Both the position numbers and the translations under genes were made by a program. A stretch of DNA of 64,000 nt from a virus: positions 1 to 64,000 of the IMG/VR virus record IMGVR_UViG_3300026165_000001; one strand, written 5' to 3'. The notes under the pieces are model-generated. The model did no database searches. It saw only the letters and a list, made by a program, of their open reading frames with translations, and was not told the DNA's origin. Of this stretch, positions 4,598 to 23,068 are shown piece by piece (position 1 is the stretch's first letter; each line of letters begins with the position of its first letter).

Positions 4598-4605
4598 TAT
4601 TTATC
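4598..4605 (-). promoter_or_regulatory. Late promoter octamer GATAAATA
   Basis: Minus-strand GATAAATA at the end of the preceding gene, about 140 nt upstream of gene 32. It gives gene 32 a possible second, late promoter. Confidence 0.45.
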
Positions 4606-5263
4606 AGAAAAATCCTGCGAACTTAGGATGAGACTTGATAATCTCAAACTTTTTAGCATTCAATCTATCATGAATTTTGTCAGCACGGATCTCTAGTAGG
4701 TATTGATCTAGCGGTTCAATATTGGTCTTGACTGGTCCTTGCCATGCATCCATTGCATTAGGCATATCGCGAATTTGCTGTTTGATTTTTTCAGCGGCTT
4801 CTTTCTGACCACGATATAATAGTTCATCATATTTGTCCCAGAGTGCATCTCTTTCGTCATTATAATCTTCAATGAATTGATGAAGGCTTTTGTAAATCTT
4901 ACCAAGCACGACAAATTCTTCACGTTCACGTTTGTGATGTTGTCCTCTTGATTTAGCGTTAGCATAGCCCCAGTTGAAAGGTATAATCTTGTAACGTTGT
5001 GACAGTTTTGTTTGATCTATAACATAAACGATATCTGCCCAATGCTTGGCATAATTGATGTCGCGTGTAAGGCTAACACCTTTGAGCCAAAAGCTATCTT
5101 TATATTCAGGATGATCGTCTTTCAATCGTCTACCACCAGGCCAGAATCTCTGAGTTGTTCTACCTTCGATTCGATTTTCTTTTAGTTGCTTTGCTGCATG
5201 ATCGAAACGCACCCCATGATATAGGGGTGCGTCTCTGCCTTCAGTTATTTGATGTAGTCTCAT
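4604..5263 (-). CDS. Putative ADP-ribosyltransferase-like, capsid-tagged protein
   Basis: A 219-residue protein with the outline of an ADP-ribosyltransferase: PLYHGVRF near residue 13 (NAD-site strand), GVSLTRD at 62-68 in the place of the STS motif, and EREEF at 113-117 as a possible ExE catalytic loop. The N-terminus MRLHQITE then G matches the T4 capsid-targeting pattern ending in IxE that gp21 cleaves. T4 Alt is an ART packaged in this way and injected to modify host RNA polymerase, so this may be a compact Alt-like effector. The ATG overlaps the stop of the 885-residue gene (ATGA) and lacks a strong Shine-Dalgarno. The fold call is by motif only. Confidence 0.5.
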   Translation of the reverse strand: MRLHQITEGRDAPLYHGVRFDHAAKQLKENRIEGRTTQRFWPGGRRLKDDHPEYKDSFWLKGVSLTRDINYAKHWADIVYVIDQTKLSQRYKIIPFNWGYANAKSRGQHHKREREEFVVLGKIYKSLHQFIEDYNDERDALWDKYDELLYRGQKEAAEKIKQQIRDMPNAMDAWQGPVKTNIEPLDQYLLEIRADKIHDRLNAKKFEIIKSHPKFAGFF

Positions 5264-7917
5264 GCGCCGAAGAGTTTGCGAGTATCACTGTAACGGTTCA
5301 AAGTCTCGTTGATAGCATCAAGCTCAGTCTCGTAAACATTTTCACTATCAGACTCAAGCTGTTGCTCGTCAACTTGACCGGCGCGCTTGATAACGTTGAT
5401 TGCCTGCATGGCCATGTTGATGTATTTTCCACCAAGATCATGAACTGCATCTGATACTTTCATCATCATGTTGCTGAGTTCATCATCCTTGACGGCTGGC
5501 GCCAAAAAGTCTACCATTGCTGCGACTTCAGTTGCTGGGTCGTTGAATCTCTGGTTGGTTGGTGATTCTGGATCATCAAAATCAACCTCACGATTGAAGT
5601 AAATGTCGTCTTTGTTTTTCATTACATAACGCGCAAGTGATACAACCTGCTGCTCTAGTTCTTGACGATTGCGGTATGTTTCAATAACCCGTGCAACATA
5701 AGGAAGACTGTCTGCGATGCTTTCATCAAAATATGTCATTGTGGTTTCACTTTTGAGTTCGTCAATACGCTCTTGCGGCACTTCGCTTTTTTCCGTTGTG
5801 AAGCTTTCCAGTTGTGTCTTGTAACCAGTTGGGTTAGCCATCTTCTTGAGGTTATTGCGCAAACCACTGATACGTGATGTGATTTCTTCGCCTATCTGTT
5901 GGTCTTCAAAAAAGTCATTTCGACGATTTTTACGATTGAACTTCTTGAGCTGATTGAGCTCTTCCATTGTTTCGTAAATGTGCTGTCCAAAGTCATCAAA
6001 CGGCGTACCGCCTTCCTTAACATGGCGGGCCATGGCTTTTGCAGCGGTGATATTGTTGCTTGGAAACTTGAAACGTTCGCCTTCACTATTTTCAATGAAG
6101 ATGCTTTCGATCTGCCGTGTTCTTGCGCCACGCTTTTCTTCATCTACATTGCGCTTATGACGAACAATGAGACGAGCGTCTCCTAGTTCGTTAACGCTTT
6201 TACGTGCTGATCCGTGCCAGCCGCTGAAGCCCTCACTAACTGATTCAGGCAACTTGCCAACTGGTCTGGCTGTAGGATCAACCCCATCAAGATCTCGTTT
6301 TTTCTTAAATCTTCGTGTAAACCCTCTGTTTTCTGCACGATCTGCATCTGATCCGGGTCCTTTTACATCTCTTATTCGTTTATCAAAATTCATGTATGTT
6401 TTCTGATCAGCCTTGTATCGTTTTTGCCTTAGCTTATCGCCGGCGTCAACTCCATGATTATATGGTGCTGTTGAACCTTTTGTTTTCAATACCTGAGCAG
6501 CACGTTTTTGTGATCTCTCATCTTGATCTTTCGGATCGCCCCTGCGGATACGACCAGCAGTAGCTGGATATGAACCGGCATGAGGATTATTTCTCCATAC
6601 AGGATCCGTAATTGCACCTTGCTTCATAGCTTTCTGTCGTGGTGTCAATTCATTTAATTGATCTGTCTCATCAACACGGTCTGGTGCATTTTCAGGATCA
6701 CCTGTCTTAGCAAACCTTTTGGCGTGAACATGGTCTTTGAATGTTTTCATCGTGCCTTCTTGGTTTTTTGCCCACCAGCCGCCATCCTTCAATTTCTTTA
6801 CAGTGCCTTCGGCTTGTGCACCACCCCAACTTGATTCTTTAGTCATAACCTTAACCCTCTTATTGTTTTTTGCGTCGCGGATTTCACAATTCTGGCCTGG
6901 TTTAATATCTTCCATTTTCACATTCTCCTTGACCCGTGATGGATCTGGTTGTCCATCATGAATCATTTCATAGTAGGATAGGATTGCATCATAATTTGGC
7001 TTGAACAAAAGACGATCTGAAAAACTAAGTTCTTCATTTTCCTTCCACTTCTTTTTAATTGTTGCACGAGTGATTGGCTCACCTTTATGTTCCTTATAGA
7101 GCTCTGCCGCCCAAGTCTTGGGATTTCCAATACTTGCTTTTCCTTTGAAATATACCTGCCAGCTTGGATGAATAGCCGAACCACCCTTTAGATCAAATGA
7201 TTGCTGAGTGCCTGTGTGTTCTTTAACCATGATCTGCATCTTCTTTCCATTTGTAGTATTGCGAATCTCACAGTGCTTGCCTGGCTTGACATCCTGCGTT
7301 GCTTCCCATTCTCCATCGCGAATCTTTTTCATGACTGCTGCTCGCGTCATCTCTCGTGCTTCATTTACTGATTCATCTACAGGAATCAATGTGTTTAACG
7401 GGCGGCGCATTGTTCTTCCTTTGTCATCTTTCCCGTCAGCAAATGTTTTCATTTTACCCATATATTCAACGCGGTCAAAACCAGTGATTGTCATTACATT
7501 GCTGCTACTTTTGCTTGGAAGAACACGTTGTCCTACTTTGAATTTTCCACCCAGCGGTTTTGCTGCTTCTTCTACCTTGTTTTTTGCCATGTATGCGAAA
7601 TCCTTGGGTCCAATTGATTTGCCAAATGTCTTAACTGTGTATTCAATAATATAACGATTGGCTAGGTTACGTAGTCCCTTGAGCATTGCTGCGATGTCCT
7701 TGGGTTCTGTGTCCTTGGACAAATTAACAACAATTTCATTAGATGATTCATCAGCAACAAAGTTAACCATCATCTGGATATCCTTAGCATAGAAGCGGCG
7801 GGCTTCAGATGGATCTACAACCTTTTTGCCGCTTTCTGTGAACAATACAATATCGTGACCAAAACCCTTAATGATTTTGAATATCTGTTCTGAAATATGC
7901 TCAATTGAACTTGCCAT
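5260..7917 (-). CDS. Large modular virion-associated protein (885 aa)
   Basis: Residues 1-115 form a compact domain with the block EARRFYAKDI; I recall similar sequence in marine T4-like phages but no known role. Then come small beta modules: FKVGQRVLPSKSSSNVMTI, and a duplicated unit (PGKHCEIRN...MVKE and PGQNCEIRD...MTKE), KOW-like in look. The middle is basic and repeat-like (Arg/Lys/Asp), and the C-terminal 300 residues are helical and acidic. There is no membrane segment. It sits among virion and packaging genes, so a structural or injected role is likely. The ATG follows a late octamer by exactly 5 nt with no Shine-Dalgarno, suggesting a leaderless late mRNA. Confidence 0.7.
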   Translation of the reverse strand: MASSIEHISEQIFKIIKGFGHDIVLFTESGKKVVDPSEARRFYAKDIQMMVNFVADESSNEIVVNLSKDTEPKDIAAMLKGLRNLANRYIIEYTVKTFGKSIGPKDFAYMAKNKVEEAAKPLGGKFKVGQRVLPSKSSSNVMTITGFDRVEYMGKMKTFADGKDDKGRTMRRPLNTLIPVDESVNEAREMTRAAVMKKIRDGEWEATQDVKPGKHCEIRNTTNGKKMQIMVKEHTGTQQSFDLKGGSAIHPSWQVYFKGKASIGNPKTWAAELYKEHKGEPITRATIKKKWKENEELSFSDRLLFKPNYDAILSYYEMIHDGQPDPSRVKENVKMEDIKPGQNCEIRDAKNNKRVKVMTKESSWGGAQAEGTVKKLKDGGWWAKNQEGTMKTFKDHVHAKRFAKTGDPENAPDRVDETDQLNELTPRQKAMKQGAITDPVWRNNPHAGSYPATAGRIRRGDPKDQDERSQKRAAQVLKTKGSTAPYNHGVDAGDKLRQKRYKADQKTYMNFDKRIRDVKGPGSDADRAENRGFTRRFKKKRDLDGVDPTARPVGKLPESVSEGFSGWHGSARKSVNELGDARLIVRHKRNVDEEKRGARTRQIESIFIENSEGERFKFPSNNITAAKAMARHVKEGGTPFDDFGQHIYETMEELNQLKKFNRKNRRNDFFEDQQIGEEITSRISGLRNNLKKMANPTGYKTQLESFTTEKSEVPQERIDELKSETTMTYFDESIADSLPYVARVIETYRNRQELEQQVVSLARYVMKNKDDIYFNREVDFDDPESPTNQRFNDPATEVAAMVDFLAPAVKDDELSNMMMKVSDAVHDLGGKYINMAMQAINVIKRAGQVDEQQLESDSENVYETELDAINETLNRYSDTRKLFGA

Positions 7918-7921
7918 ACTG

Positions 7922-8365
7922 TTATTTATCCTGATCTATTATTTTAACATTAGGGTTTCTTCTCTTGACGCGATCAACAACGTGTGATAGATATTCCTGA
8001 CCCATTTTTGTTGAACTGCTACGTTTGATAGCTTTGTTCTTTTCTCTAGCATAATCCGCAGCGGCTTGATATAGCTCACTTGCGAGTCCACGATTACGAT
8101 AATCTTCATCAACAATGACGTGCTTGAGCCATAGTTCATCATTGTCATATGGATTTATTTGTAATGCTAGACTTGATACAACTCGTTGCCCATCAAAATG
8201 AGCAATGTGTATTTCTTTATCCATTTCATTTACATGAAGATAGCGTAGCCTTTCAAATGTATCCTGATTGACATCTTGGTTACGGGAAATGAAAAGAGCT
8301 AGATCATTTCCCGGCATGATTTTCATCTGTATGTCGTTATTTTCAAATAGATGTCGATATCTCAT
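7922..8365 (-). CDS. GNAT-family acetyltransferase, possibly capsid-tagged
   Basis: A 147-residue GNAT protein. The acetyl-CoA-binding segment is VIVDEDYRNRGLASELYQAA, with the motif A pattern V-x-x-x-[YF]-R-x-R-G-[LI]-A. The N-terminus MRYRHLFE then N matches the (I/L)xE capsid-targeting pattern, so it may be packaged and injected. The ATG at 8365 overlaps the terminase stop (TGATG); a GTG one codon earlier is an alternative. Its own stop lies in the late octamer that starts the next gene. The acetylation target is unknown. Confidence 0.75.
   Translation of the reverse strand: MRYRHLFENNDIQMKIMPGNDLALFISRNQDVNQDTFERLRYLHVNEMDKEIHIAHFDGQRVVSSLALQINPYDNDELWLKHVIVDEDYRNRGLASELYQAAADYAREKNKAIKRSSSTKMGQEYLSHVVDRVKRRNPNVKIIDQDK
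7923..7930 (-). promoter_or_regulatory. Late promoter octamer GATAAATA, leaderless type
   Basis: Minus-strand GATAAATA, then ACAGT, then the ATG at 7917: a 5-nt gap. The TAA of the upstream GNAT gene is part of the octamer. No Shine-Dalgarno precedes the ATG. Confidence 0.6.
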
Positions 8366-9970: not shown

Positions 9971-10429
9971 TTAGCCCTTCTTTTTATGTGCCTTGTATTC
10001 CTTGAGCATACCCTCTTCAGTATGATCTTCTTCAATCTGAACTTTTTGTGGGTCTGCATTGAGATAACGACGTAGGCTCAAATCAACTGTTTCACCTTCA
10101 GGAGGCTCTTGATAATGGCCACGATCATCATACTGCTTATAGATACTATTGGACCATTCACGCATTTGCTGTTGTTCGGTCTTGGCTGACTTTTTAGACT
10201 TTTCTTTATCCTTAGCAGCTTTCTTTGCTGTTTCTTTTTCGTCACCATCGCCGTCGATATCAGCAAAATCTGGTTTCGCTTCTTCTTCTTCGAGTTCTTT
10301 AGAATCCTGTGCGTCTTCCATTAGGTCACGGATTTGATACATGTTGCGTCCTGACTCGTCTTGTGGCAATTTTTTTGCTGTTTCATTACCTGCGAGCTGG
10401 CGTAGTCTGTCGAGTTCTGTTTTATCCAT
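9971..10429 (-). CDS. Hypothetical acidic/basic protein with DxDGDG motif
   Basis: A 152-residue, highly charged, probably flexible protein. ADIDGDGDEKE near residue 57 matches a calcium-binding EF-hand/dockerin-type loop, followed by a Lys/Ala/Glu helix. The N-terminus MDKTELDRLRQLAG shares the L-x-x-L-A-G peptide seen at the N-termini of the proteins at 13278 and 22835 and at the C-terminus of scaffold gp22. A Shine-Dalgarno AGAGGA precedes ATG 10429. It follows the 169-residue gene by one nucleotide. Possibly a head-core or virion protein; function unknown. Confidence 0.65.
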   Translation of the reverse strand: MDKTELDRLRQLAGNETAKKLPQDESGRNMYQIRDLMEDAQDSKELEEEEAKPDFADIDGDGDEKETAKKAAKDKEKSKKSAKTEQQQMREWSNSIYKQYDDRGHYQEPPEGETVDLSLRRYLNADPQKVQIEEDHTEEGMLKEYKAHKKKG

Positions 10430-10430: not shown

Positions 10431-10940
10431 TTAGTCCTCTGCTTTCTTCAGATGATCTGCACGCTCTTTGGCAATCTCTTTAAGGAACGAATCTTTAAAC
10501 TTTTCTCCGTAAAATTGCTCTGGGTCGGGTTGCTCAACTTCACTGTATTCTTCGTCAGTTAGGCGTGGTTCATAATTCTCTTCTGGCATCTCATCTGCCT
10601 CGTTTTCAATATGTAGAGGCTCTAGCTTGTTTCGAACGATTAGAAAACGTTCATGGATGCCCATTTTTTGTGTTAGTTCAGCAAGCAACTGAAGTGGGCT
10701 TGCTGGCTGACGCGTTTTGAAGTCGACCATGTAAACCTCTGCGGCATCAATACTGCGGAAATCACGTGGATTACGCTGTATAATTGTTTTCTTTGGCGTT
10801 GTGATATCAAAGCCGTCATACTTTCTTAGGTGCAACTCCATTGCGTCGAGCTGCTCATCAGTTGGTTCTCTAGCAATCTTCACACGAAATTCGTGGACCG
10901 CTTCATTTTCTGCCAAATATTGCCCTAGGTTCTTGGTCAT
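10431..10940 (-). CDS. Conserved T4-like phage protein with capsid-targeting-like N-terminus
   Basis: A 169-residue protein. MTKNLGQYLAE then N closely resembles, in length and ending, the T4 internal-protein targeting peptide that ends in IAE. Next comes a small alpha/beta domain (HEFRVKIAREPTDEQLDAME and DFRSIDAAEVYMVDF) of a type I have seen in other marine T4-like phages. The C-terminus is acidic. ATG 10940 has CAGGAG upstream and a late octamer at 10962-10969. It probably enters the prohead with the scaffold; the biochemical role is unknown. Confidence 0.7.
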   Translation of the reverse strand: MTKNLGQYLAENEAVHEFRVKIAREPTDEQLDAMELHLRKYDGFDITTPKKTIIQRNPRDFRSIDAAEVYMVDFKTRQPASPLQLLAELTQKMGIHERFLIVRNKLEPLHIENEADEMPEENYEPRLTDEEYSEVEQPDPEQFYGEKFKDSFLKEIAKERADHLKKAED

Positions 10941-10961: not shown

Positions 10962-10969
10962 TATTTATG
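10962..10969 (-). promoter_or_regulatory. Late promoter octamer CATAAATA
   Basis: Minus-strand CATAAATA followed by C, 21 nt before ATG 10940 and overlapping the end of the preceding gene. It likely drives 10940 onward, including gp17. Confidence 0.55.
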
Positions 10970-11387
10970 TGTCTTGGTTATTTTTCACTAATATAAAATA
11001 TACCGCTGTTCCCAAATCTTCAGTTACAACGCGGTATCCCATTTTTCCTGCGTAACGATCAAGCATTCTAGAGTATAAATTTGTTCGAGATGACTCGCCT
11101 TTATCACCACTAAATGTAAGAGTGTGTGGCTGATTTTGTTCAACCCACTCTAACATATGATTAATTACTGCTGAGAATATTTTGTTGGCATTGCCCTCAT
11201 GTGTTTGTGTTGTTTTTTTGTTTCTTTTAAAGGCCACCGTCCAATCTTCTGAACTGCTGCCGCTGCTTTGATACATTAGTTCAATATGATCGTTGTCGAT
11301 ATAAGTTTCATAAAACTGGTTATCGAATGTATCAACAGTCTTATCCCAAAAATCTGCCTTGTAGTCGAATAGCTCAAATAATCTCAT
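10965..11387 (-). CDS. Hypothetical protein, MRLFE N-terminus
   Basis: A 140-residue protein with an alpha/beta layout: EDWTVAFKRN, a helix around KIFSAVINHMLEWVEQ, then TLTFSGDKGESSRTNLYSRM and a closing strand AVYFILVKN. This resembles a small phage family I have seen without assigned function; the late helix-strand order could be a degenerate GNAT fold. The N-terminus MRLFE offers an LxE motif at residues 3-5, weaker than the other candidate tags. It is cotranscribed with gp16, overlapping it by 4 nt. Confidence 0.6.
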   Translation of the reverse strand: MRLFELFDYKADFWDKTVDTFDNQFYETYIDNDHIELMYQSSGSSSEDWTVAFKRNKKTTQTHEGNANKIFSAVINHMLEWVEQNQPHTLTFSGDKGESSRTNLYSRMLDRYAGKMGYRVVTEDLGTAVYFILVKNNQDT

Positions 11388-11914
11388 TGGTCATCGTCTC
11401 TTTTCATGCCTGCAAGTATATCACTTAACATATCATTACGTGTTGCAATAATACGTCCTTCTGTTTCTTCTGCTGAATCATCTTGTGTTTTGAGGTGTCG
11501 TTTCTTGAGATAATCAAGCTTTTCGTTCTCGTGTTCCAACTTGGCTTTTTGTATTTGTAGCTTGACCATTTCAAGCTTCTTTTGCGCTTTGTTAGTTTTG
11601 GCGTTGAGCGCATTGGTCATCATGCTACTGGCTGCGTTGAAGATATCAGCGGCATGTCGGTCCTCGACATTTTTACCCAAATCAACTAGGTCATCAAATG
11701 TTTCAATAGCCTTACGTGCATACTCGTCATAATCTGTATCAACGTTGTCTAGCCCGCTGACTTGCGGCAAGGCAGCATCGATTTTGTCTGCCCTCTCCAT
11801 GATCTGATGCATTTCATCTTCTGTGTAACCTTCAATTTCTTCCATGTCATCTTCCTTGACTTCTGGTAAATCCATTGGTGGTAAATTGAAGGTATCTTCT
11901 AATTTGCGTGTCAT
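11384..11914 (-). CDS. 16: Terminase small subunit (gp16-like)
   Basis: A 176-residue, mostly helical protein with long charged helices (around residues 55-150, for example ALNAKTNKAQKKLEMVKLQI), typical of T4-like gp16, which forms rings that recognise DNA and regulate gp17 at the start of packaging. T4 gp16 is 164 residues. It is followed within 1.5 kb by gp17 in the same direction, although four or five small genes intervene. It overlaps its neighbours on both sides by 4 nt. The call is from size, coiled-coil nature and position. Confidence 0.7.
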   Translation of the reverse strand: MTRKLEDTFNLPPMDLPEVKEDDMEEIEGYTEDEMHQIMERADKIDAALPQVSGLDNVDTDYDEYARKAIETFDDLVDLGKNVEDRHAADIFNAASSMMTNALNAKTNKAQKKLEMVKLQIQKAKLEHENEKLDYLKKRHLKTQDDSAEETEGRIIATRNDMLSDILAGMKRDDDQ

Positions 11915-12141
11915 ATTCTGCTCACCCTATAGTTTCCTCTGATGTTGCTGTGCCAAAACTTACCCTTGCTTGGGGCGCGGACCCATTGACGAAATAAACC
12001 TTCGCCCACTCCCAAAACACGATAACGGCGCCCGCTGTTGAGGGTCATGATTACGACATTGGGGCCAGCGTAGTCTAGATCAGCAATCCAACTGCTCATA
12101 ACCTTGACTTCAGCAATAGGTTCTATCTGTTCTAATCTCAT
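11911..12141 (-). CDS. KTSC-domain protein
   Basis: A 76-residue protein consisting almost entirely of a KTSC domain: SSWIADLDYAGPNVVIMTL, then a strand pair SGRRYRVLGV and the closing APSKGKFWHSNIRGNYRV. KTSC domains occur fused to lysyl-tRNA synthetase-like and other proteins and as small stand-alone phage proteins; their role is poorly known, probably nucleic-acid or protein binding. The N-terminus MRLEQIEPIAE ends in IAE, a candidate gp21 cleavage site. It overlaps gp4 and gp16 by 4 nt. Confidence 0.75.
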   Translation of the reverse strand: MRLEQIEPIAEVKVMSSWIADLDYAGPNVVIMTLNSGRRYRVLGVGEGLFRQWVRAPSKGKFWHSNIRGNYRVSRI

Positions 12142-12627: not shown

Positions 12628-13278
12628 TTATCCGGTGCTGGATGGTCGTGGAGAACGGCTAGGTTCTATTCCATCATCAAACTGACTTGATTCAACATAT
12701 GTCTGAACACTCTCAGGCTGGAATGTTACTGCCCACTGAACTGGATTGCTGTCGCTGTAGTTCATTGTATCGCCAGTCACCGAGGTAATATATGGTTGCT
12801 TGAGTATCCAACCACGGTGACGGCCGCGGATACCATTCTGTATAATACGGATCTCAGGAAAGAAGTTGCGTGTGGCATTGGGGGTAAAACCTAAATCTGT
12901 TTCAAAGTTGATCTCCACTGTGCTTGTTCCCTCAAGCTGAGTCCTACTTGTCAAACCTTCTGTTCCGTTATAGTAATGAGCAAAATAGTCACGCATGATA
13001 TTATACCACTGGTCATCAAATGTGTCATAAAAACTCACTGTGATCGGATCATAATTGATTCGTGTCTGCACGAAACGCTTTTTGTTGTATTGATTCATCA
13101 ACTGACCATCAACACTAAAACTCGGCTGTGTAACTTCACTAACTTTGTGGTAATTGATAATCGCACGATCATGTGTAGTCAACTGCAATGTGAAATTAAA
13201 CCTCTGACGAGGAATGAGATCCAATGTGCCTGGACTATCTGAGCTATAAACCTCTTGTGCGAAATTGGTGATTGCCAT
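12628..13278 (-). CDS. Tail tube-like protein (gp19 paralogue)
   Basis: A 216-residue protein with the features of a T4-type tube fold: TLDLIPRQRFNFTLQL, NQYNKKRFVQTRINYDPITV, FYDTFDDQWYNIMRDYFAHY and a C-terminal strand QWAVTFQPE. Its layout matches that of gp19 encoded just downstream (13622-14230), so it is a divergent tube paralogue, perhaps a baseplate-proximal initiator, an inner ring or a tube terminator. It overlaps the upstream gene by one base (TAATG). Which tube position it takes cannot be told from sequence. Confidence 0.7.
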   Translation of the reverse strand: MAITNFAQEVYSSDSPGTLDLIPRQRFNFTLQLTTHDRAIINYHKVSEVTQPSFSVDGQLMNQYNKKRFVQTRINYDPITVSFYDTFDDQWYNIMRDYFAHYYNGTEGLTSRTQLEGTSTVEINFETDLGFTPNATRNFFPEIRIIQNGIRGRHRGWILKQPYITSVTGDTMNYSDSNPVQWAVTFQPESVQTYVESSQFDDGIEPSRSPRPSSTG

Positions 13279-13553
13279 TATTGTAGATATGCTCTCGCTT
13301 TGTCTCTATAGATTGTTACACTCGCTACACTGGGATGACGATATAATTTATTCAAATGCTCAGGAAAAACATGAAGCTCATGCTGACTTACGCCTGTGTC
13401 TATTTCAACATATTTTTTGGTTTTCTTGATGTCAGCATACATGTGATCGCCATCAAATGCTTGTATTAGTAAATCAGCAATGTCTTCCATTTTTTCGTCA
13501 TCAATTCCATCTTCATTGATTCCTGAAAGAGCTTTTAGTCTATCTAAATTCAT
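13278..13553 (-). CDS. Hypothetical protein with LxALSGINE N-terminus
   Basis: A 91-residue protein. MNLDRLKALSGINE then D contains an INE motif that fits gp21 cleavage and the L-x-A-L-[SA]-G peptide shared with the protein at 22835. The body is a small acidic helix plus strands (KKYVEIDTG, SVTIYRDKARAYL), with no known domain. AAGGAAA precedes ATG 13553. It lies between two tube genes, just after the terminator at 13571-13613, so its transcription start is unclear; no late octamer is seen directly upstream. Confidence 0.6.
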   Translation of the reverse strand: MNLDRLKALSGINEDGIDDEKMEDIADLLIQAFDGDHMYADIKKTKKYVEIDTGVSQHELHVFPEHLNKLYRHPSVASVTIYRDKARAYLQ

Positions 13554-14646: not shown

Positions 14647-15072
14647 TTATGGCTTGATTATATTATGGTGGGGTAAGACCATGAGTTGATCATCTTCGCC
14701 TTCTGGCTGATCATATGTCAACCACTGTGGTGGTTGACCATCCTTCCTGGCTTCTCTAATTTCTTCCAGCATTGCAGCTTCTTCACGACTGTATGGGTAT
14801 TCATACAAGCGGTGACCTCTGTCGTTGATCGCCCAGAGTATAATTGATGGCTTGTTTGTTATCTCATGCCAAACATAGGCATATTCACCTTGGGGTTTGG
14901 CTTGTATTGGCGCCCCCATTTGCCTTACGAAGAGCTCATAAGCGACTACTCCGATCATAAGAAAACACATCAACGCGATAGATTTTAAAAACCAATGTGC
15001 TGGTGACCAGTAAGCCAGAAAAGAAACAAGCAATGCAGTTAATATGCCTATGAGAGTTAATATTGTTACCAT
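14647..15072 (-). CDS. Membrane protein, third gene of ExbB/ExbD-like operon
   Basis: A 141-residue protein with two N-terminal membrane helices (about 2-21 and 28-48) and a soluble C-terminal half containing NKPSIILWAINDRGHRLYEY and a charged helix EEAAMLEEIREARKDG. No family recognised. The start overlaps the stop of the ExbD-like gene by 7 nt, so the two are translationally coupled, which points to one complex. Sidedness of the soluble part is not clear; with two helices both ends would be on the same side. It may be an accessory or effector subunit of the channel. Confidence 0.7.
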   Translation of the reverse strand: MVTILTLIGILTALLVSFLAYWSPAHWFLKSIALMCFLMIGVVAYELFVRQMGAPIQAKPQGEYAYVWHEITNKPSIILWAINDRGHRLYEYPYSREEAAMLEEIREARKDGQPPQWLTYDQPEGEDDQLMVLPHHNIIKP

Positions 15073-15677
15073 TCGTCATTCCCATCGCTCATTGAAGGCG
15101 GAAGCGTATTTCTTCTCACCTGAACATTTGTTCTTAAGTCCGTGATCTTTCCATCCTGTCCGACGATGAATGACACCACTGTTGTCTCTTGACTAGGGTC
15201 AAGCGTAACCGTGTCTGTAAACACACTGCGGAACGGATTCAGCATGGTCAAATTAATTGTGATGTCTTCTGTTGGTCCTGAACTGCTATAATAATGAACA
15301 TTTACAAAATATTCACCTGGAGGCAAAATTGTGAAACGTATATTTTCATAATTGCGTGATATTACCACTTGCTCACCATCAACCATGATAGTATCATTTT
15401 GTGTGCCGCGGTCATCTCGCTCTAGAACAAAATAACTACCATCCATACGAGTAAACCCAACCCAATCCCTGTCTTTGCCTTGGACCCAAAGATCAATATC
15501 AACATAACTTTCATCATCCCATTCCATTTCGACCATGAAGCGTATGGGAGGATCAATTTGTCCGCCTTGGGTTGGTGGATTGATCATGAGAAAGGCAAGA
15601 ATAAACATCAACGTAATACCCAACAACAAGTTGAATACCAAATCCAAAAATGCTAATCTAAGAGTTCCTGATGTCAT
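15066..15677 (-). CDS. ExbD/TolR-like membrane protein
   Basis: A 203-residue protein with one N-terminal helix, LRLAFLDLVFNLLLGITLMF, containing Asp12 in the position of the proton-carrying Asp of ExbD/TolR/MotB. A roughly 165-residue beta-rich domain that would be periplasmic follows (FMVEMEWDDESYVDIDLWV, LPPGEYFVNVHYYSS). The periplasmic part is larger than that of ExbD and is not OmpA-like. It overlaps the ExbB-like gene by 4 nt (ATGA). Together they would form a proton-driven stator-type complex in the host inner membrane. The family call rests on the helix with its Asp and the partner gene. Confidence 0.65.
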   Translation of the reverse strand: MTSGTLRLAFLDLVFNLLLGITLMFILAFLMINPPTQGGQIDPPIRFMVEMEWDDESYVDIDLWVQGKDRDWVGFTRMDGSYFVLERDDRGTQNDTIMVDGEQVVISRNYENIRFTILPPGEYFVNVHYYSSSGPTEDITINLTMLNPFRSVFTDTVTLDPSQETTVVSFIVGQDGKITDLRTNVQVRRNTLPPSMSDGNDEW

Positions 15678-16126
15678 TCTTCAAGTATCACTAACTGAAA
15701 ATTAATCAACGCTGATAGTATAATACCACTAAGAGATGTAATCAATGCTGCTGCCATTCCGCTTGCCATACTGGTTAGAGCTTGTGTCATTGCAACAGTA
15801 TCTGCTGGATCTAATACAACCCCAGGCCCAAACACACTCCAAAGAACGATCATAAATCCAATCAATGTACCGACGAGACCAATCGAAACAGTGGTTTCGC
15901 CCATATAACGAACCATTTTGTGTTCGTATTCTTCATATGATTTTCGCCAATGCATACGAATCATTAAGATGTGGGCCACCGCCGCAATGCCTAGGTTAAC
16001 GAATGTTAGGTAGGTTTGATCATAATTTAGAATGAAGTCAAACAATCCAAGGTAATATTGGCCTGTTGCTAATACAAACACTGTCAATATTAATACTGTC
16101 CAAAACTTCCAAAATTTCATATTCAT
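15674..16126 (-). CDS. MotA/TolQ/ExbB-like proton channel protein
   Basis: A 150-residue integral membrane protein with hydrophobic segments near 8-28, 40-57, 79-100 and 118-147. TVSIGLVGTLIGFMIVLWSV matches the ExbB/TolQ signature GLLGTVxG, with Thr87 at the channel Thr; MASGMAAALITSLSGIILSA matches the last helix, with Thr130 at the second channel Thr. The short loop between helices 2 and 3 (KSYEEYEHKMVRYMGE) would be cytoplasmic. It is first in a three-gene operon with its own late octamer (16178-16185) and Shine-Dalgarno AAGGA, so it is made at the time of virion assembly. Confidence 0.75.
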   Translation of the reverse strand: MNMKFWKFWTVLILTVFVLATGQYYLGLFDFILNYDQTYLTFVNLGIAAVAHILMIRMHWRKSYEEYEHKMVRYMGETTVSIGLVGTLIGFMIVLWSVFGPGVVLDPADTVAMTQALTSMASGMAAALITSLSGIILSALINFQLVILEE

Positions 16127-18647: not shown

Positions 18648-18687
18648 GTATGATCTCCTGTCAAAGCTTATATTTTTGCTCTGCCAG

Positions 18688-18695
18688 TATTTATT
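18688..18695 (-). promoter_or_regulatory. Late promoter octamer of gene 18
   Basis: Minus-strand AATAAATA followed by C, 40 nt before the gp18 ATG. Confidence 0.7.
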
Positions 18696-18738
18696 GGGCG
18701 GCTACTTATCTGGGGTGGTTACGGTGATAACTACGTGC

Positions 18739-19365
18739 TTAATTACCTACTGCGCGTTCAACATGCTTTTTTAGTTCTGATAGATCACCGTCGTTTGGTA
18801 TCGTTTTTTCAAACTCTGTGGCATAATCCAACCAGCGCCATTCGCTCTCGTGGATTTCTGGATAATCTCGCATCCAATCAGTGTCATAACGATTGTCAGA
18901 AATTGCTTTCTGAACCCATTCTGGATCAGGGCCACGTTTAACACGCCACACCTCGCCATTCATCTTGCGAATGAGATCGCGTTCGTTATAAAATCGAACG
19001 TCAGGTATCACATAATTTGTTTGGGGATTTTGTTCAAGCACCTGCTTGACCATGAGGACCCAGATTTGACCATCAAGTCCTCGACGCATACAATCTGTGC
19101 CCACGCGCTGCATGACCAATCTTGGAGTGAGATCATATCCAAGTTCTTGGCTCCACCACGGATCTGGTGTTTCTCGCCACTCACGACTATCAGGTGTATC
19201 ACCCTCAACCATGCCACGATCCCAACCAAAGAGGGTGGAAACTGTGTCTTTCAGCCTATCTGCATAACTGAGTTTTGTAAATCCATAATCTTCAACTAAA
19301 ATGTCGCCCACTGTGCCTTTACCACAACCGATAAAGCCACAGACACCAATAATTCTTCTTTTCAT
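18739..19365 (-). CDS. 1: Deoxynucleoside monophosphate kinase (gp1-like)
   Basis: A 208-residue P-loop kinase with Walker A GFIGCGKGT at residues 10-18, a T4 gp1-type LSYADRLKD helix and a lid region RYDTDWMRDYPEIHESEW. It phosphorylates dNMPs to dNDPs for the phage precursor pool, in the cytoplasm. T4 gp1 is 241 residues. GGAG lies 6 nt before the ATG. A sigma70-like promoter (19387-19415) is upstream, consistent with early or middle expression, although the gene sits next to late gp18. Confidence 0.88.
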   Translation of the reverse strand: MKRRIIGVCGFIGCGKGTVGDILVEDYGFTKLSYADRLKDTVSTLFGWDRGMVEGDTPDSREWRETPDPWWSQELGYDLTPRLVMQRVGTDCMRRGLDGQIWVLMVKQVLEQNPQTNYVIPDVRFYNERDLIRKMNGEVWRVKRGPDPEWVQKAISDNRYDTDWMRDYPEIHESEWRWLDYATEFEKTIPNDGDLSELKKHVERAVGN

Positions 19366-19386
19366 TTGATCTCCAGAGTATTCATA

Positions 19387-19415
19387 CTTATAGCATGAAA
19401 ACTCTTAAAAATCAA
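19387..19415 (-). promoter_or_regulatory. Sigma70-like promoter of dNMP kinase
   Basis: TTGATT (19410-19415), 17-bp spacer, TATAAG (19387-19392), minus strand, about 22 nt before ATG 19365. Confidence 0.6.
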
Positions 19416-19419
19416 TCAC

Positions 19420-19680
19420 TTATTGTCTTTCAAGTTTTCTCATGAGGGCTTGCTGGTTTCGTTCATCAATACGCTCAGTAAGCCTATCTACCTCGGATTC
19501 AGTTCCTCTCAGAATGTCACGAGTCAAACCCATGATGACTATTTGCTCATCTTCGGAAAGTTCGCCAGTCTGCTTACAATACCATTCCTTGAATTCATCA
19601 ACAAGGCGAAGAGCTTGAGCTCGCTTCAATTTCATGCGTCGAAGATCATTCATGTTTTTTTCAAATTCTGTCTCTGTCAT
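19420..19680 (-). CDS. Hypothetical helical protein (86 aa)
   Basis: An 86-residue, highly charged helical protein (EFEKNMNDLRRMKLKRAQAL, EVDRLTERIDERNQQALMRK) that could form a coiled coil. No family recognised. Its start overlaps the stop of the preceding gene by 4 nt, and it is the last gene of the minus-strand early cluster that begins at the promoter near 20750 or earlier. Probably a cytoplasmic early protein. Confidence 0.65.
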   Translation of the reverse strand: MTETEFEKNMNDLRRMKLKRAQALRLVDEFKEWYCKQTGELSEDEQIVIMGLTRDILRGTESEVDRLTERIDERNQQALMRKLERQ

Positions 19681-19937
19681 GATTCCAACTTGTTCATTGC
19701 TTCATCTTGTCCTAATTGATCGATCATTTTTTCCAGAGCCTGTGGAAAATGATCGACCATCATTGAATCGTCAGGCAAACTTGTGTAAAGCGAGTTAAGA
19801 AAATAGATCATGAAGCCGTCACGCTTTGCTAGCGCCATAACGTCGGGCGATCGCTTTTCAATAAGCTTGGCTTCTTTGTGCAATCTTTCAACCAGTTCGC
19901 AAACTAGGGCGGCACGAGGATCATCATATCTCATCAA
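19677..19937 (-). CDS. Hypothetical protein (86 aa)
   Basis: An 86-residue helical protein (ALVCELVERLHKEAKLIEKR, VDHFPQALEKMIDQLGQDEA). No domain recognised. The start at 19937 lies within the last codons of the small basic gene (14-nt overlap), so translational coupling is likely. It is in the early cluster of short genes; function unknown. Confidence 0.65.
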   Translation of the reverse strand: MMRYDDPRAALVCELVERLHKEAKLIEKRSPDVMALAKRDGFMIYFLNSLYTSLPDDSMMVDHFPQALEKMIDQLGQDEAMNKLES

Positions 19938-20091
19938 AAGGTCGTCCTTTGTGCTTGCGCTTTCGATCTATTTTTGTCTCACGCTTGTCAGGAATGGTCC
20001 GTTGGGTGAACCCGCTGCGAGGATCCCTCAAAGTAGCCGCAACTGGGTTGCGGCCTTTGGGCATCTTGATTTTTGCAGGTTTCTGTGCCAT
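19924..20091 (-). CDS. Small basic protein, ArfA-like pattern
   Basis: A 55-residue, strongly basic protein. The start is taken at ATG 20091; AGGAA lies further upstream than usual, inside the previous gene, 7 nt away from its stop. The segment NPVAATLRDPRSGFTQRTIPD followed by a Lys/Arg-rich stretch resembles the layout of the ribosome-rescue factor ArfA (NA..aLLxDPxFRxRV...KKGKGSYxRK), but the key KGKGSY part is replaced. It may bind RNA or the ribosome; this is only a resemblance in pattern. Confidence 0.5.
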   Translation of the reverse strand: MAQKPAKIKMPKGRNPVAATLRDPRSGFTQRTIPDKRETKIDRKRKHKGRPFDEI

Positions 20092-20098
20092 GGCGTTA

Positions 20099-20368
20099 TT
20101 AATCGTTCCTAATCTCACCGGTTTCCAGGTCCAAAACGATAACCTGATAGTTGGGACCGGCACCAGCGCCGACCGTAACCTCTGTGGGGTTCTCAACGTC
20201 AGAGATTGCAGTGCAGTCAACAACGTCGTTTCCTTGCCAGATCAACATGGATCCTTCAACGTCATATCCCATGTCCCAGGCTTCTGCGCTGGTAACAGTT
20301 CGATATTCTTTGCGGTCCCACGCAAGGGCTACAAGTGACGCAACATGAAATTTCTCGAAAATAGTCAT
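20099..20368 (-). CDS. Hypothetical early protein (89 aa)
   Basis: The start is set at ATG 20368 with AAGGA 7 nt upstream; a longer frame exists but runs through the upstream gene. The 89-residue product starts MTIFEKFHVASLVALAWDR and ends in a strand pair YQVIVLDLETGEIRND. No domain recognised. It follows the 114-residue gene by 10 nt and is cotranscribed from the early promoter at 20750-20778. Confidence 0.7.
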   Translation of the reverse strand: MTIFEKFHVASLVALAWDRKEYRTVTSAEAWDMGYDVEGSMLIWQGNDVVDCTAISDVENPTEVTVGAGAGPNYQVIVLDLETGEIRND

Positions 20369-20378
20369 TTTCCAATCC

Positions 20379-20723
20379 TTACATGTAAAGCGGGCCAGTC
20401 CACTGGATGGTGTAGCCACCATCAAGGACGTTGCCACGGCTGTGGTTGCGGGCCGGAGCGTTGTAGCCAGCAGCCATAAGGATGGTGCCCTTGGGGAACT
20501 TCTTGTCCGTGTCAGTGGCAACAATAAAGCCCCAAACGCTGCGGTTGGAAACAATCTTGATATACTTCCGACCAGGGAGGACTTCAAAGCCGGCGTTGAA
20601 CTCTGCGACCATCTGTTCATTGATCTCAGTCAATTCGTCTTTGCCACGCAGGGTGTAGGTCAGGTAGTCCGCCTTGATGGCTTCAACCAGGGCGTCTACT
20701 GCGTTGTCGAGCGTCATTTCCAT
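20379..20723 (-). CDS. Conserved hypothetical early phage protein
   Basis: A 114-residue protein. ATG 20723 is chosen because AAAGGAG is 7 nt away. The C-terminal half reads GRKYIKIVSNRSVWGFIVAT, KFPKGTILMAAGYNAPARNH and RGNVLDGGYTI; I recall this block from unrelated phages and plasmids, where it has no known function. It is probably a small beta barrel. It heads an early operon with the inverted-repeat promoter cassette. Confidence 0.75.
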   Translation of the reverse strand: MEMTLDNAVDALVEAIKADYLTYTLRGKDELTEINEQMVAEFNAGFEVLPGRKYIKIVSNRSVWGFIVATDTDKKFPKGTILMAAGYNAPARNHSRGNVLDGGYTIQWTGPLYM

Positions 20724-20732
20724 CGTGTATCT

Positions 20733-20778
20733 CCTTTGCTTACTCATATAATATAAGCAAAAAGCCTTGGTTTGTCTA
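20733..20778 (-). promoter_or_regulatory. Early sigma70-like promoter with inverted repeat, copy 2
   Basis: TAGACA (20773-20778), 17-bp spacer, TATATT (20750-20755), inverted repeat TTGCTTA-N11-TAAGCAA over the -10, then AAAGGAG. Same cassette as copies 1 and 3. Confidence 0.82.
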
Positions 20779-20816
20779 CCAGAAAGTGAAACTAATTTTT
20801 CTTGGTCTTCAATAAC

Positions 20817-21089
20817 TTAAAGATTTTCTGAAAGTTTTTTCATCATGCTTTCATTTACATAATCTTGTTGATCCTCAATGAGGTTAGACAATTCCACAAG
20901 ATCTGTGGTGTTGACAACATCCTCAACTATCTGACTACGTTTCATGACACCATTACGTATTTCATCCCGACTAAGATATGGATAGTGCCATATCAGAGCC
21001 TCTTCAATCGCTTTAATCGCCTGTTTCTGAAGCACAGCAACCTGAGTCATATATTCGTCGTAAAGGTTTTCTTGTTTTTCAGTCAGCAT
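20817..21089 (-). CDS. Hypothetical helical protein (90 aa)
   Basis: A 90-residue helical protein (ENLYDEYMTQVAVLQKQAIK, VNTTDLVELSNLIEDQQDYV). The ATG directly follows the stop of the zinc-motif gene (TAGATG), and GGGAGG provides the ribosome site. No recognised domain. It ends before the promoter cassette of the next gene and belongs to the unit from the promoter at 21876-21904. Confidence 0.65.
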   Translation of the reverse strand: MLTEKQENLYDEYMTQVAVLQKQAIKAIEEALIWHYPYLSRDEIRNGVMKRSQIVEDVVNTTDLVELSNLIEDQQDYVNESMMKKLSENL

Positions 21090-21530
21090 CTACTGCCTCC
21101 CAGCGCAAACAGGTCCGAGACCAGATTGAATACTTTCAGGGACAGTGAGTGTCCGTCCACACGCGCCACAAGTGCCGCTGTGGTAAAACTCAAGCTCTTG
21201 GGGCATCTTGCCAGCACAGACTTGCTTGAGTGTCCAGTTGAGGGCTTTGAAGCTTGCTGCATCAGGCTTGCCTTTGCGCCCAAAAAGCACTTGTCCAGAA
21301 CGACGAGTATCGATATAGCCGATGTATCCGTAATCAGTCTCGTTGTTGGGACCACGGAGCGCGCTGACAAAGCGGATGGTTGCATCCTTGTCACGCTTGC
21401 GGCTGATTTGGTAGGTAAAGCGGGCGCCGGTGCGTTTGCTGACAACAGTGAACAGGGCGCGGCCCGCATAGACAAAACGCTGGATGTCAGTGGGGTCGGT
21501 CATCTGGCCTTCAAAAAGATCGTCTTGCAT
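21090..21530 (-). CDS. Zinc-motif early protein (DUF6011-like C-terminus)
   Basis: A 146-residue protein. The N-terminal part is strand-rich (ALFTVVSKRTGARFTYQISR, YGYIGYIDTRRSGQVLFGRK). The C-terminus has CGACGRTLTVPESIQSGLGP followed by VCAG, a treble-clef-like zinc site of the DUF6011 type that occurs in phage and mobile-element proteins. It may bind nucleic acid. ATG 21530 is preferred over the GTG just before it because AGAGGA is 4-5 nt upstream. It is second in the operon after the 103-residue gene. Confidence 0.75.
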   Translation of the reverse strand: MQDDLFEGQMTDPTDIQRFVYAGRALFTVVSKRTGARFTYQISRKRDKDATIRFVSALRGPNNETDYGYIGYIDTRRSGQVLFGRKGKPDAASFKALNWTLKQVCAGKMPQELEFYHSGTCGACGRTLTVPESIQSGLGPVCAGRQ

Positions 21531-21539
21531 CACGTCCTC

Positions 21540-21851
21540 TTAGCGCAGGGTGGTGTGAAAGCCGGTTTCGGCGGTGAACAGCTCTTGCAGCATGTCAGCG
21601 TAAACACCTTCATGACGCGAGATCGTTTTCCACTCTAGCTTGCGGATACGACCAAACTCAACGTTATAGGTGTCGCTGCTGTGGTCATATTCAACACGCA
21701 GGCGGTTAGCGCGGTTTCGGGCGCCGGTGCCAAACTGTAGGGCAAGTCCACCATCACCGCTGAGAGCAACCATGTTCTTGCCACCTACCATCAGTAAAAA
21801 CTGACGTCCACCCATCTGGTCGAGAATGGTTTGGGCAACTTGATTGGACAT
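21540..21851 (-). CDS. Conserved hypothetical early phage protein
   Basis: A 103-residue protein of a family I have seen in many phages: N-terminal AQTILDQMGGRQFLLMVGGK, then beta strands (LALQFGTGARNRANRLRVEY, DTYNVEFGRIRKLEWKTI) and a C-terminal helix. No function is known. AAAGGAG is 5 nt before ATG 21851, downstream of the inverted-repeat promoter, so it is the first gene of an early operon. Confidence 0.8.
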   Translation of the reverse strand: MSNQVAQTILDQMGGRQFLLMVGGKNMVALSGDGGLALQFGTGARNRANRLRVEYDHSSDTYNVEFGRIRKLEWKTISRHEGVYADMLQELFTAETGFHTTLR

Positions 21852-21858
21852 AATATCT

Positions 21859-21904
21859 CCTTTGCTTACCCTACCAATATAAGCAATGTGCCTTGGTTTG
21901 TCAA
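21859..21904 (-). promoter_or_regulatory. Early sigma70-like promoter with inverted repeat, copy 3
   Basis: TTGACA (21899-21904), 17-bp spacer, TATATT (21876-21881), inverted repeat TTGCTTA-N11-TAAGCAA over the -10, then AAAGGAG. The -35 touches the stop of the gene at 21901. Confidence 0.87.
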
Positions 21905-22089
21905 CCAGAAATATAAGGTTCTTTGCCTTTGGGACGATACCACGTTTTTTGCTGGTGTAGCTTGCCTAGCATGTCGTTAAGCAGACGCTTGCGATCTGGG
22001 CTGTCTGTAGCTGATAGCTGCTGCCGAAGTGCAGACTCAATGATTTCAAGATCTTCAAGATCAAGTTCAAAATATCGATTATAAGTCAT
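21901..22089 (-). CDS. Small conserved phage protein (62 aa)
   Basis: A 62-residue protein, MTYNRYFELDLEDLEIIESA at the N-terminus and KLHQQKTWYRPKGKEPYISG at the C-terminus: a helical hairpin with an aromatic basic tail. I recall very similar short proteins in marine T4-like phages, without a function. It follows the GNAT-like gene by 5 nt. Confidence 0.7.
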   Translation of the reverse strand: MTYNRYFELDLEDLEIIESALRQQLSATDSPDRKRLLNDMLGKLHQQKTWYRPKGKEPYISG

Positions 22090-22094
22090 GGTTA

Positions 22095-22823
22095 TCAGTT
22101 ATCTTTAGGTAGTTTTTTTGGGTTTATCACTGTTCGGCTAGGATCTGATGGAGCAGGAGCAGTCCATCCCAAGGATTTCATTTTTTCCCATGCTGCTTTT
22201 GCTGCGGGCTGTTGGAGTCCACTAGCATGGAGAAGAAGGCCTTGCTTGTCAAGCCATTTGGCTGCTTCTTGATACATAGCCAGGGCGATTCGCTGTCTTT
22301 GGAAGTCCTCATTGACTCTAATATAATCAACAAGAGGCTTGTCTACATGAAATTTCTTAAATTTTTGGAATTCTTGAGCATTATTCTTATTCAGTTTTGG
22401 ATCATCAACCATTTCCAAATAATGATCCAAGGTTTCACTATCCATGTCTTTGATCTTGCTTTGATCTGACCAAGCAAGATCCCACCCTTGTGTTCTCGGA
22501 ACATATCGACCCAAAATTGTGTATGTCACTAGTGTTTTTTTGACTTCGTCAGGCATATTACGCCAATGTGTTCCAACTAGTTCTCGTGGTATGTATTGTT
22601 TTAGAATATAATTAACCATTGATGGATATCTGGCATCAAATCGTTCTTTGGGAATGTATGATATTTTAAGGTAGCCAGCCTCCTTGCCATTGACTCGGGG
22701 GACCAGCTTGTGCACAATCCATTCACTATTAAAATTTCGATCTGATTCAGAATCCTGGTGTAACTCAAATTTAATATCGTCACCAGCTTTGGTCTTGTAT
22801 TCTACAATATCCTGAATACGCAT
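22095..22823 (-). CDS. GNAT-like protein with capsid-targeting-like N-terminus
   Basis: A 242-residue protein. The C-terminal segment DYIRVNEDFQRQRIALAMYQ, followed by EAAKWLDKQGLLLHASGLQ and AAKAAWEKMKSLGW, has the order of the last half of a GNAT acetyltransferase (strand 4, pyrophosphate loop, helix 3, strand 5, helix 4), though the RxxGxG/A loop is altered (QRQRIA). The N-terminus MRIQDIVE then Y fits the IxE tag for capsid targeting. It is therefore a candidate injected acetyltransferase, a second one beside that at 7922-8365. Start choice is weak: no clear Shine-Dalgarno. Confidence 0.6.
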   Translation of the reverse strand: MRIQDIVEYKTKAGDDIKFELHQDSESDRNFNSEWIVHKLVPRVNGKEAGYLKISYIPKERFDARYPSMVNYILKQYIPRELVGTHWRNMPDEVKKTLVTYTILGRYVPRTQGWDLAWSDQSKIKDMDSETLDHYLEMVDDPKLNKNNAQEFQKFKKFHVDKPLVDYIRVNEDFQRQRIALAMYQEAAKWLDKQGLLLHASGLQQPAAKAAWEKMKSLGWTAPAPSDPSRTVINPKKLPKDN

Positions 22824-22834
22824 TGTGAATCTAC

Positions 22835-23068
22835 TTAACTGCCTGGATAAATTTTAATCACGTCTTGCGGTTCTTGGCTGCCACCAATCGCTCTGTAAGC
22901 ATACTCTTCTTCAACTGAGATTCGGTCTGTTGGATCATAATATGTTTGTAAATGGTTGATCAGATCACCCACAGTCATTCCATCCAAGTCCACAATATCC
23001 AATCGTGAACCTTGAGTCTTTTTAGCTTCCTTAACACCCGCAAGAGCTTTTATTCTGTTAATATCCAT
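22835..23068 (-). CDS. Hypothetical protein with LAGVKE N-terminus
   Basis: A 77-residue protein. MDINRIKALAGVKE resembles the N-terminus of the protein at 13278 (MNLDRLKALSGINE) and ends in a possible VxE cleavage site. Beyond this the two differ: here a LDIVDLDGMTVGDLINHLQT segment and an acidic C-terminus ending DVIKIYPGS. AGGATAAG precedes the ATG. It stands between gp13 and the GNAT-like gene; probably a minor virion or core protein. Confidence 0.6.
   Translation of the reverse strand: MDINRIKALAGVKEAKKTQGSRLDIVDLDGMTVGDLINHLQTYYDPTDRISVEEEYAYRAIGGSQEPQDVIKIYPGS

Follow-up and report, generated by a model that had tools for sequence, protein, structure and literature searches.

Putative T4-type capsid-targeting peptides on candidate head cargo proteins of an uncultured virus and its relatives

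Tagged proteins and head genes of the window

The stretch analyzed here (the window) comprises the first 64,000 bases of the 87,355-base uncultured virus record IMGVR_UViG_3300026165_000001. Seven of its predicted proteins start with a short peptide that ends in (L/I)xE, and a prohead protease of the gp21 family is encoded in the same stretch. Such peptides are probably T4-type capsid-targeting propeptides on an enlarged set of cargo proteins, from which gp21 would remove them. A preliminary description of this DNA had listed the seven N-termini and regarded the proteins as injected head cargo. All seven read as written there and end in (L/I)xE as stated. Because all seven genes are on the minus strand, the listed coordinates, by which they are named here, are those of the stop-codon ends; the other window genes given with a coordinate range below lie on the same strand. 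Genes were called by a simple purpose-made script, which selects starts by ribosome-site match and length, and some starts will be wrong. The nearest terminases (~53%) are those of PA5oct-like Pseudomonas jumbo phages, followed by those of Phosso, Atu_ph07 and Rak2-like phages.

Gene 4604 (4604..5263) encodes an ADP-ribosyltransferase (ART)-like cargo candidate of 219 residues with the tag MRLHQITE (5240-5263) and the predicted mature start GRDAPLYHG. The 169-residue phrog_14802 virion protein of 10431 (10431..10940) carries MTKNLGQYLAE at 10908-10940, and the 76-residue KTSC-domain protein of 11911 (11911..12141) carries MRLEQIEPIAE at 12109-12141. Putative tags are present in the GNAT acetyltransferase of 7922 (7922..8365, 147 residues; MRYRHLFE at 8342-8365) and the weakly GNAT-like protein of 22095 (22095..22823, 242 residues; MRIQDIVE at 22800-22823). 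A 68-residue protein tagged with MRSQEFLRE (37288-37314) is encoded in the head cassette (37108..37314). The seventh N-terminus, that of 13278, belongs to a second type described below.

The head cassette is of the T4 type, with Pfam matches for the portal (PF07230), gp21 (PF03420) and gp23 (PF07068). The prohead protease gp21 (S77; 35428..36063) matches with E=1.3e-21, as its earlier naming implied; of 20 additional records, 11 gave a gp21 match as well. The major capsid protein gp23 (33133..34293; E=2.1e-101) has its expected gp21 cut at QLSE41↓SATVG. By eye, [ILV]xE is found shortly before the conserved core in all 12 gp23 sequences with visible N-termini, T4 included, and is [IL]xE in 11 of them; the SCTP-2 sequence is cut by the locus edge. 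An acidic gp67-like core protein (36078..36965), encoded between portal and gp21, has homologues in relatives and no Pfam match. Inspection of gp21 itself revealed a conserved E↓[SGA] about 17-22 residues from the start in most relatives, including MLE↓SHDGKD in T4; this is a candidate self-cleavage site.

Frequency of the motif in the window and in related phages

For 17 sets, [IL]xE ending at residues 7-12 was counted in the N-termini of predicted genes and in decoys taken from the same proteins, each decoy starting at an internal methionine. The set of the window consists of the window and the remainder of its contig (84 predicted genes). Here 11/84 genes and 33/443 decoys have the motif (p=0.07). 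The seven-protein list alone is thus weak. Since the count is not significant, window-only counting was dropped as proof and the case rests on the relatives. The motif is enriched in G002 (19/125, p=0.009), G005 (13/91, p=8e-4), G006 (27/160, p=2e-4), G008 (32/226, p=0.003), G011 (27/135, p=3e-4), Cassandra (9/43, p=0.018), the terminase-neighbourhood loci (37/283 proteins after removal of near-duplicates, p=0.004), the 15-64 kb region of Atu_ph07 (20/66, p=5e-6) and the 60-109 kb region of T4 (11/65, p=0.011). The excess is not significant at genome level in G004 (27/303), CBB (8/58), SCTP-2 (10/95) and Phosso (2/79), nor in Atu_ph07 at 63-95 kb (3/46). No excess is observed in the controls phiKZ (3/65, decoys 13/252) and N4 (4/51, decoys 27/358). 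When the window and its relatives are pooled without T4, phiKZ and N4, the motif is found in 245/1794 genes and 452/6315 decoys, with p=1e-16, a value inflated by tandem paralogues.

The related motif [IL]xD reaches p<0.05 in none of the 17 sets. [IL]x[KRQ] is enriched in 5 of them, so part of the [IL]xE excess may reflect general N-terminal composition. At residues 13-18, [IL]xE rises only in Atu_ph07 (p=0.011) and Phosso (p=0.03). Near terminase genes, 21 families are represented by six or more non-redundant members; in only two of them, the family of 10431 and gp32, is [ILV]xE conserved within the first 20 residues. The latter is not a cargo protein: gp32, annotated in Cassandra, is a replication protein that keeps [IL]xE at residue 6, and its motif was rejected as a tag. 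Thus, [IL]xE alone yields false positives. The 885-residue protein at 5260 (MASSIEHISE) was rejected as well, for in relatives the Glu belongs to a conserved xxEeiFnilKg at variable distance from the start.

The window count and gp32 are what would be expected if the seven N-termini were a chance set, chosen by eye from a common N-terminal composition. Conservation within families and the sharing of tags in G006 and G008, both described below, argue against chance and make it very improbable for the set. For 4604, 10431 and 11911 it is largely refuted; for 22095 it is still a possible explanation.

Two adjacent small open reading frames (ORFs) at 43562-43780 and 43770-44018 have a common C-terminus, G[AP][GV]LAEMI[KN][DE]L, which may be a C-terminal signal or a duplication. 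These ends, LAEMI[KN][DE]L, prompted a count of C-terminal [IL]xE, which shows no excess in the window (7/84, decoys 123/1917) and p<0.05 in 6 of 17 sets (G008, G011, Phosso, Cassandra, CBB and Atu_ph07 at 15-64 kb).

Conservation of the tags in protein families

A hidden Markov model search of the loci examined (E up to 1e-5) yielded 38 unique domains of the 4604 family. In 36 of these, [IL]xE is located at most 14 residues upstream of an [L/F]-[Y/F]-H-type motif; the two misses (L124 and L140) are domains cut by the locus start. The chance rate is 13% of random 14-residue stretches (3609/27225), and no p-value is assigned to 36/38 because the 36 sequences are related. The tag glutamate E8 is invariant in 21 aligned sequences, as are H16, S64, R67, E115 and E116. 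Apart from this Glu and the preceding I/L, the tag is variable, as illustrated by MRLHQITE↓G (window), MRYDQLIE↓G (a 68%-identical relative), MRYHEILRE↓S, MKIKDLME↓A (SCTP-2) and MxxFKQ[FY]LEE↓G (G006).

The 264-residue chain of locus L109 has its [IL]xE junction (RLNE↓GKQIGL) behind residue 141, and the stretch in between contains no start codon. This internal copy fits a cut site more easily than a docking helix, since the junction lies within the chain. Two comparable cases were rejected as firm internal sites: in L105 (junction behind residue 488 of 686) a start is possible 18 residues ahead of it, at a GTG with a ribosome-site match, and in L166 (146 of 291) 10 residues ahead, at a TTG.

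Searches with the 4604 protein gave no significant Pfam or PHROG match. Its structure model has a predicted local distance difference test score (pLDDT) of 83, with values below 50 for residues 1-6, i.e. most of the tag. The model aligns with the 2'-phosphotransferase Tpt1/KptA (7yw4; Z 11.5, 2.4 Å, 108 residues) and with DarT (7omx; Z 8.1, 4.4 Å, 133 residues); Foldseek alone is weak (E=0.54). Because of these alignments the label ART-like is fair, and the predicted fold agrees with the preliminary description on this point. By its domain, the protein is likely to transfer ADP-ribosyl groups to host molecules.

The ART family was matched in 12 records. Six of these also have gp21 (G004, G005, G006, G008, G011 and SCTP-2); the six without it (G001, G003, G007, G009, G010 and G017) are fragments of 4-92 kb. 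In some relatives the family is tandemly copied. A scan of a genome collection with one peptide pattern, and therefore of limited sensitivity, found it only on NVXB01000001.1 (L188, L189; tag FKQYLEE), a contig with phage genes in a Hyphomicrobiales metagenome-assembled genome.

The 10431 protein belongs to phrog_14802 ('virion structural protein', 3.6e-24), which PHROG catalogues under head and packaging. YLxE is present in 33 of 34 rows of its family. In an alignment of 32 sequences, 30-86% identical to the window protein (a copy of the window, one near-duplicate and Phosso were omitted), Tyr-8, Leu-9 and Glu-11 are invariant and neighbouring tag positions vary. The homologues in L047 and L051 start with MKSYTQYLTE↓A. 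For the Atu_ph07 homologue (AUZ94910.1, L185:20894-21688), an in-frame ATG 29 residues upstream of the annotated start restores MKTLQDYLTE↓S. The homologue CBB_210 carries LTE↓L and was detected in CBB virions by mass spectrometry with 13 unique peptides and 60.5% coverage (PMC5259590). Its predicted N-terminal peptide is LTPEYSYR, from residue 11, if processed and ILTELTPEYSYR if unprocessed. Structure matches for the model of 10431 (pLDDT 74, predicted template-modelling score 0.50) are limited to generic ferredoxin-like folds, namely S6 and HPPK (best E 2.2e-3). The description of all these proteins as non-structural-looking does not hold for 10431, given the catalogued family and the virion protein CBB_210; here an internal protein of the head core is more likely.

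The KTSC assignment of 11911 is confirmed by PF13619 (E=1.2e-7, 31.8 bits, cut-off 25). In all six rows of this family, the window's included, [IL]xE↓[VI] immediately precedes the domain and the length upstream varies; 8 Rak2-like hits lie outside these rows. The family of 37108 is less uniform by eye: of 10 members, 5 have [IL]xE at a similar position, 2 have LAQ and 3 have neither there. Conservation of the xE position, which had been proposed as a check, is therefore found for 4604, 10431 and 11911 and is mixed for 37108.

Tags on unrelated proteins

Proteins of different kinds share a tag in two relatives. N-termini of the form [FY][KRQE]x[FYLIM][LIFM]xE occur in 15/160 proteins of G006 (decoys 0/528) and 10/226 of G008 (decoys 2/596). 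These 25 proteins comprise 16 ART-family members (10 in G006, 6 in G008) and 9 others (5 and 4, respectively). Among the 9 are two homologues of Acb1, which counteracts the cyclic-oligonucleotide-based antiphage signalling system (CBASS; PF23474, 2.8e-11 and 1.7e-19, above cut-off), and one protein with a sub-threshold DUF6934 match; those of the remainder that were tested have no match. One G008 start reads MNFKKFIAE↓N. The G008 Acb1 matched 916 phage records, and among the 20 matches listed the alignment starts at residue 11 (13 Acinetobacter), 12 (5 Rhizobium) or 2 (2 Vibrio). With most of the listed relatives, the alignable part thus begins directly behind the tag.

One of these two Vibrio phages is pv27, whose Acb1 homologue (L191:28-552) has a 20-residue start, MKPKSFREHLNQTSTDFITE↓APQ, which ends in FITE↓A and is much like the T4 IPI propeptide MKTFKEFTSTTTPVSTITE↓A. 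pv27 is a cultured phage, so the head loading of an anti-CBASS protein could be tested in it. The start of T4 gene 57B (L181:13953-14411), which we take to be 2H/Acb1-like, is MMEFKDFSTGLYVAAKF and resembles a degenerate tag that lacks the Glu.

In an array of Atu_ph07 (39.5-49.5 kb), 10 of 11 aligned proteins start with M[KR]W.[QD]L[TNI]E. Y38 R39 G40, S85 and E235 are nearly invariant and presumably represent the R-S-E signature of ARTs; none of the ART matches of the array in Pfam was convincing. One member also has a zeta-toxin domain (PF06414, 1.5e-14). Counted by record order, the array corresponds to coding sequences (CDS) 53-62 and the head-completion protein to CDS 125. The array is thus located within CDS 31-76, for which the published virion analysis reports 29 identified proteins; the number CDS 125 is listed there among the head proteins. 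For the Atu_ph07 protein L183:29091-29885, the predicted N-terminal peptide is SLSYTNIDEIPEK after processing and WEQLTESLSYTNIDEIPEK if intact.

Two further tagged proteins (L143:12417-13070 and L189:1344-1991) display by eye a kinase-like glycine loop (GDGKYGTV..AVKVF in L143). The one tested has no Pfam match, and a head-loaded protein kinase is possible. In L171:2235-5646, tandem proteins of MRNGLVEFPDGTKRWYxNG-type repeats are encoded near a tagged ART-like cluster of contig G011.

The putative tag of 7922 resembles starts of ART-like proteins, MRYQQLFE↓S in L009 and MRYCELFE↓G in L171. The start codon of 7922 is the ATG at 8365; the mechanical ORF opens with the GTG codon directly ahead of it. 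A search of the phage collection with this protein (E 1e-3) yielded no match. Of the two GNAT assignments in the preliminary description, that of 7922 is sound (PF00583, E=8.1e-11, 42.7 bits, cut-off 20.7), and acetylation of host molecules is likely by domain. The other does not reach the same cut-off: 22095 scores 17.1 bits with Acetyltransf_1 in Pfam and could be a divergent GNAT; its homologue search returned only 100%-identical copies. A 140-residue protein absent from the earlier list (10965..11387) has the tag-like start MRLFELFD without Glu, and the akin MRLFELYS is found on an ART-PolyVal protein in contig G005 (PF18760, 7.6e-20).

Packaged and processed proteins need not be injected effectors; they may be structural or core components. 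Such a role is suggested by 10431 and 37108, which are conserved and near head genes, and by the head-and-packaging category of phrog_14802. However, no structural job is evident for the ART, GNAT, Acb1 and zeta-toxin domains of tagged proteins, and the tandem copying of ART genes in some relatives resembles that of host-interaction genes. For the tagged proteins as a whole, a structural role is therefore unlikely.

A second type of N-terminus

Three window proteins start with an LxxL[AS]G-type sequence (LAG-type). The 91-residue protein of 13278 (13278..13553), of which only copies from the same virus were matched, starts with MNLDRLKALSGINE↓ (13512-13553). The other two are absent from the earlier list: a 77-residue protein (22835..23068) with MDINRIKALAGVKE↓A at 23027-23068 and a 152-residue protein (9971..10429) with MDKTELDRLRQLAGNE at 10382-10429. 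An N-terminus akin to that of 22835, MDINRLRELAGTSIQE↓A, is present in contig G002 (L159:1141). For 9971, LAG-type starts are also present in relatives, together with some LAG[IL] C-termini in the same neighbourhood.

LAG-type N-termini were counted in 3/84 genes of the window's contig (0/399 decoys, p=0.005), 2/125 of G002 (0/446 decoys) and 12/283 of the terminase neighbourhoods (4/974 decoys, p=1e-5). None is present in the sets of G008, G011, SCTP-2, Phosso, Cassandra and CBB, and several pattern matches in G004-G006 look unrelated.

This N-terminus resembles the C-terminal LAG[IL] motif of the scaffold. The gp22-type scaffold of the window (34307..35425), named by position and with no specific Pfam match, ends with IIELKKLAGLS. 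Nine of ten complete homologues end with LAG[IL] and 0-2 further residues, the tenth with NAGI and 3; T4 gp22 has no such C-terminus, and the homologues of G006 and G008 were not recovered. Additionally, 15/283 terminase-neighbourhood proteins end LAG[IL]-like, a number counted without C-terminal decoys. The simplest idea is that the cargo copies the scaffold tail and would dock at the same place.

Alternatively, the N-termini might be helices that dock on the prohead core or on the shell and stay uncut, with Glu conserved for binding. The LAG-type N-termini and the Glu-less MRLFELFD and MRLFELYS look like docking elements, Tyr-Leu ahead of the Glu is also invariant in 10431, and cleavage is deduced from sequence. 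The residue after Glu, on the other hand, is mostly small (G, S, A, N), the same [IL]xE is present at the gp23 cut site and the L109 junction lies within a chain. Taken together, this makes uncut docking an improbable explanation.

The tail tube and sheath genes are separated by three genes in a row (14647-16126), each of which encodes a protein with a hydrophobic stretch near the N-terminus; similar genes are present in G002.

Proposed head loading

In the proposed scheme of T4-type propeptides, the cargo proteins start with a peptide of ~8-14 residues that would dock on the prohead core. gp21 would then cut after (I/L)xE and the peptide would leave. The mature cargo would stay with the DNA and most likely enter the host at infection. 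Injection is plausible; like the effector function, it is assumed by analogy to T4. As T4-like targeting and processing peptides, the N-termini of 4604, 10431 and 11911 are well supported by conservation in relatives and that of 37108 moderately (5/10). The peptides of 7922 and 22095 are assigned by resemblance, and 13278 is to be removed from this class in favour of the LAG-type.

The scheme is weakened by the window count, the sets without excess, [IL]x[KRQ] and gp32, and by the following points. The Phosso homologue of 10431 has YLSS and lacks the site. The conserved E↓S site near the N-terminus of gp21 itself reads ITTE in the window and not [IL]xE. Only same-virus copies and no informative homologues of 7922, 13278 and 22095 were found in the loci examined. 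All processed N-termini given for these proteins are predictions.

A broader reading can be offered tentatively; it goes further than the evidence favours at present. In this reading, T4-like jumbo phages would possess a signal-peptide-like loading system, in which one cheap N-terminal tag is moved between genes. The tag would load large, fast-changing effector sets (tandem ART arrays, GNAT, anti-CBASS Acb1 and zeta-toxin fusions), and some cargo may be produced in the form of polyproteins, to be separated by gp21 within the head. An LxxL[AS]GxxE-like tag would copy the LAG[IL] tail of the scaffold and direct cargo to the scaffold-tail site, as a possible second loading signal common to LAG-type cargo and scaffold.

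Head cargo is usually learned only through proteomics. If the proposal is true, sequence alone could reveal the cargo of many T4-like jumbo phages that have not been cultured, and the ART arrays and tagged Acb1 would be clear candidates for proteins acting before any phage gene is expressed.

Comparison with known systems

The loading mechanism is known in kind, since T4 propeptides, ART packaging in myoviruses and the P1 DarB signal have already been described. T4 gp21 cuts after L/I-x-E, and the T4 internal proteins, Alt and three IPs, carry propeptides of 10-19 residues; T4-like phages may load various proteins by propeptides, as a review suggests (PMC9026906). The likeness to T4 (IPI, IPII, IPIII, Alt) consists in the short N-terminal peptide ending in (L/I)xE, the gp21-family protease and the T4-type capsid. 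MKTYQEFIAE↓A of IPII/IPIII is close to MKSYTQYLTE↓A in L047 and L051 and MNFKKFIAE↓N in G008.

On the basis of gene context and MuF fusions, myoviruses were proposed to package ARTs (PMC9503650); the main text of that paper does not use the terms targeting sequence, propeptide or gp21. Like Alt and other packaged phage ARTs, 4604 has a predicted ART fold and is presumed to be delivered with the DNA. Unlike Alt-type ARTs it is small, with Tpt1/KptA and DarT as nearest folds. In P1, the N-terminal signal of DarB is sufficient to load a reporter into the phage head, and the Dar proteins have no recognized consensus (PMC9024508), whereas the tag described here is repeated and recognizable. phiKZ and SPN3US also combine a gp21-related protease with processed head cargo. 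Several SPN3US propeptides, however, exceed 100 residues and only that of gp45 (20 residues) is of T4 length (PMC5694885); a 50-kb stretch of phiKZ has no [IL]xE excess at residues 7-12.

In the literature covered (abstracts and text excerpts, with most subscription papers and all preprints outside its scope), no description of such tags was found outside T4, P1 and phiKZ-like phages. The breadth of use, the tagged arrays, the tagged Acb1 and the LAG class appear to be new. The candidate cargo families of the window and its relatives outnumber and differ from those of T4; tagged ART-like proteins in tandem arrays, a tagged Acb1 and a LAG-type N-terminus come in addition. If the proposal is true, the T4 targeting sequence would extend from a detail of a model phage towards a widely used loading system.

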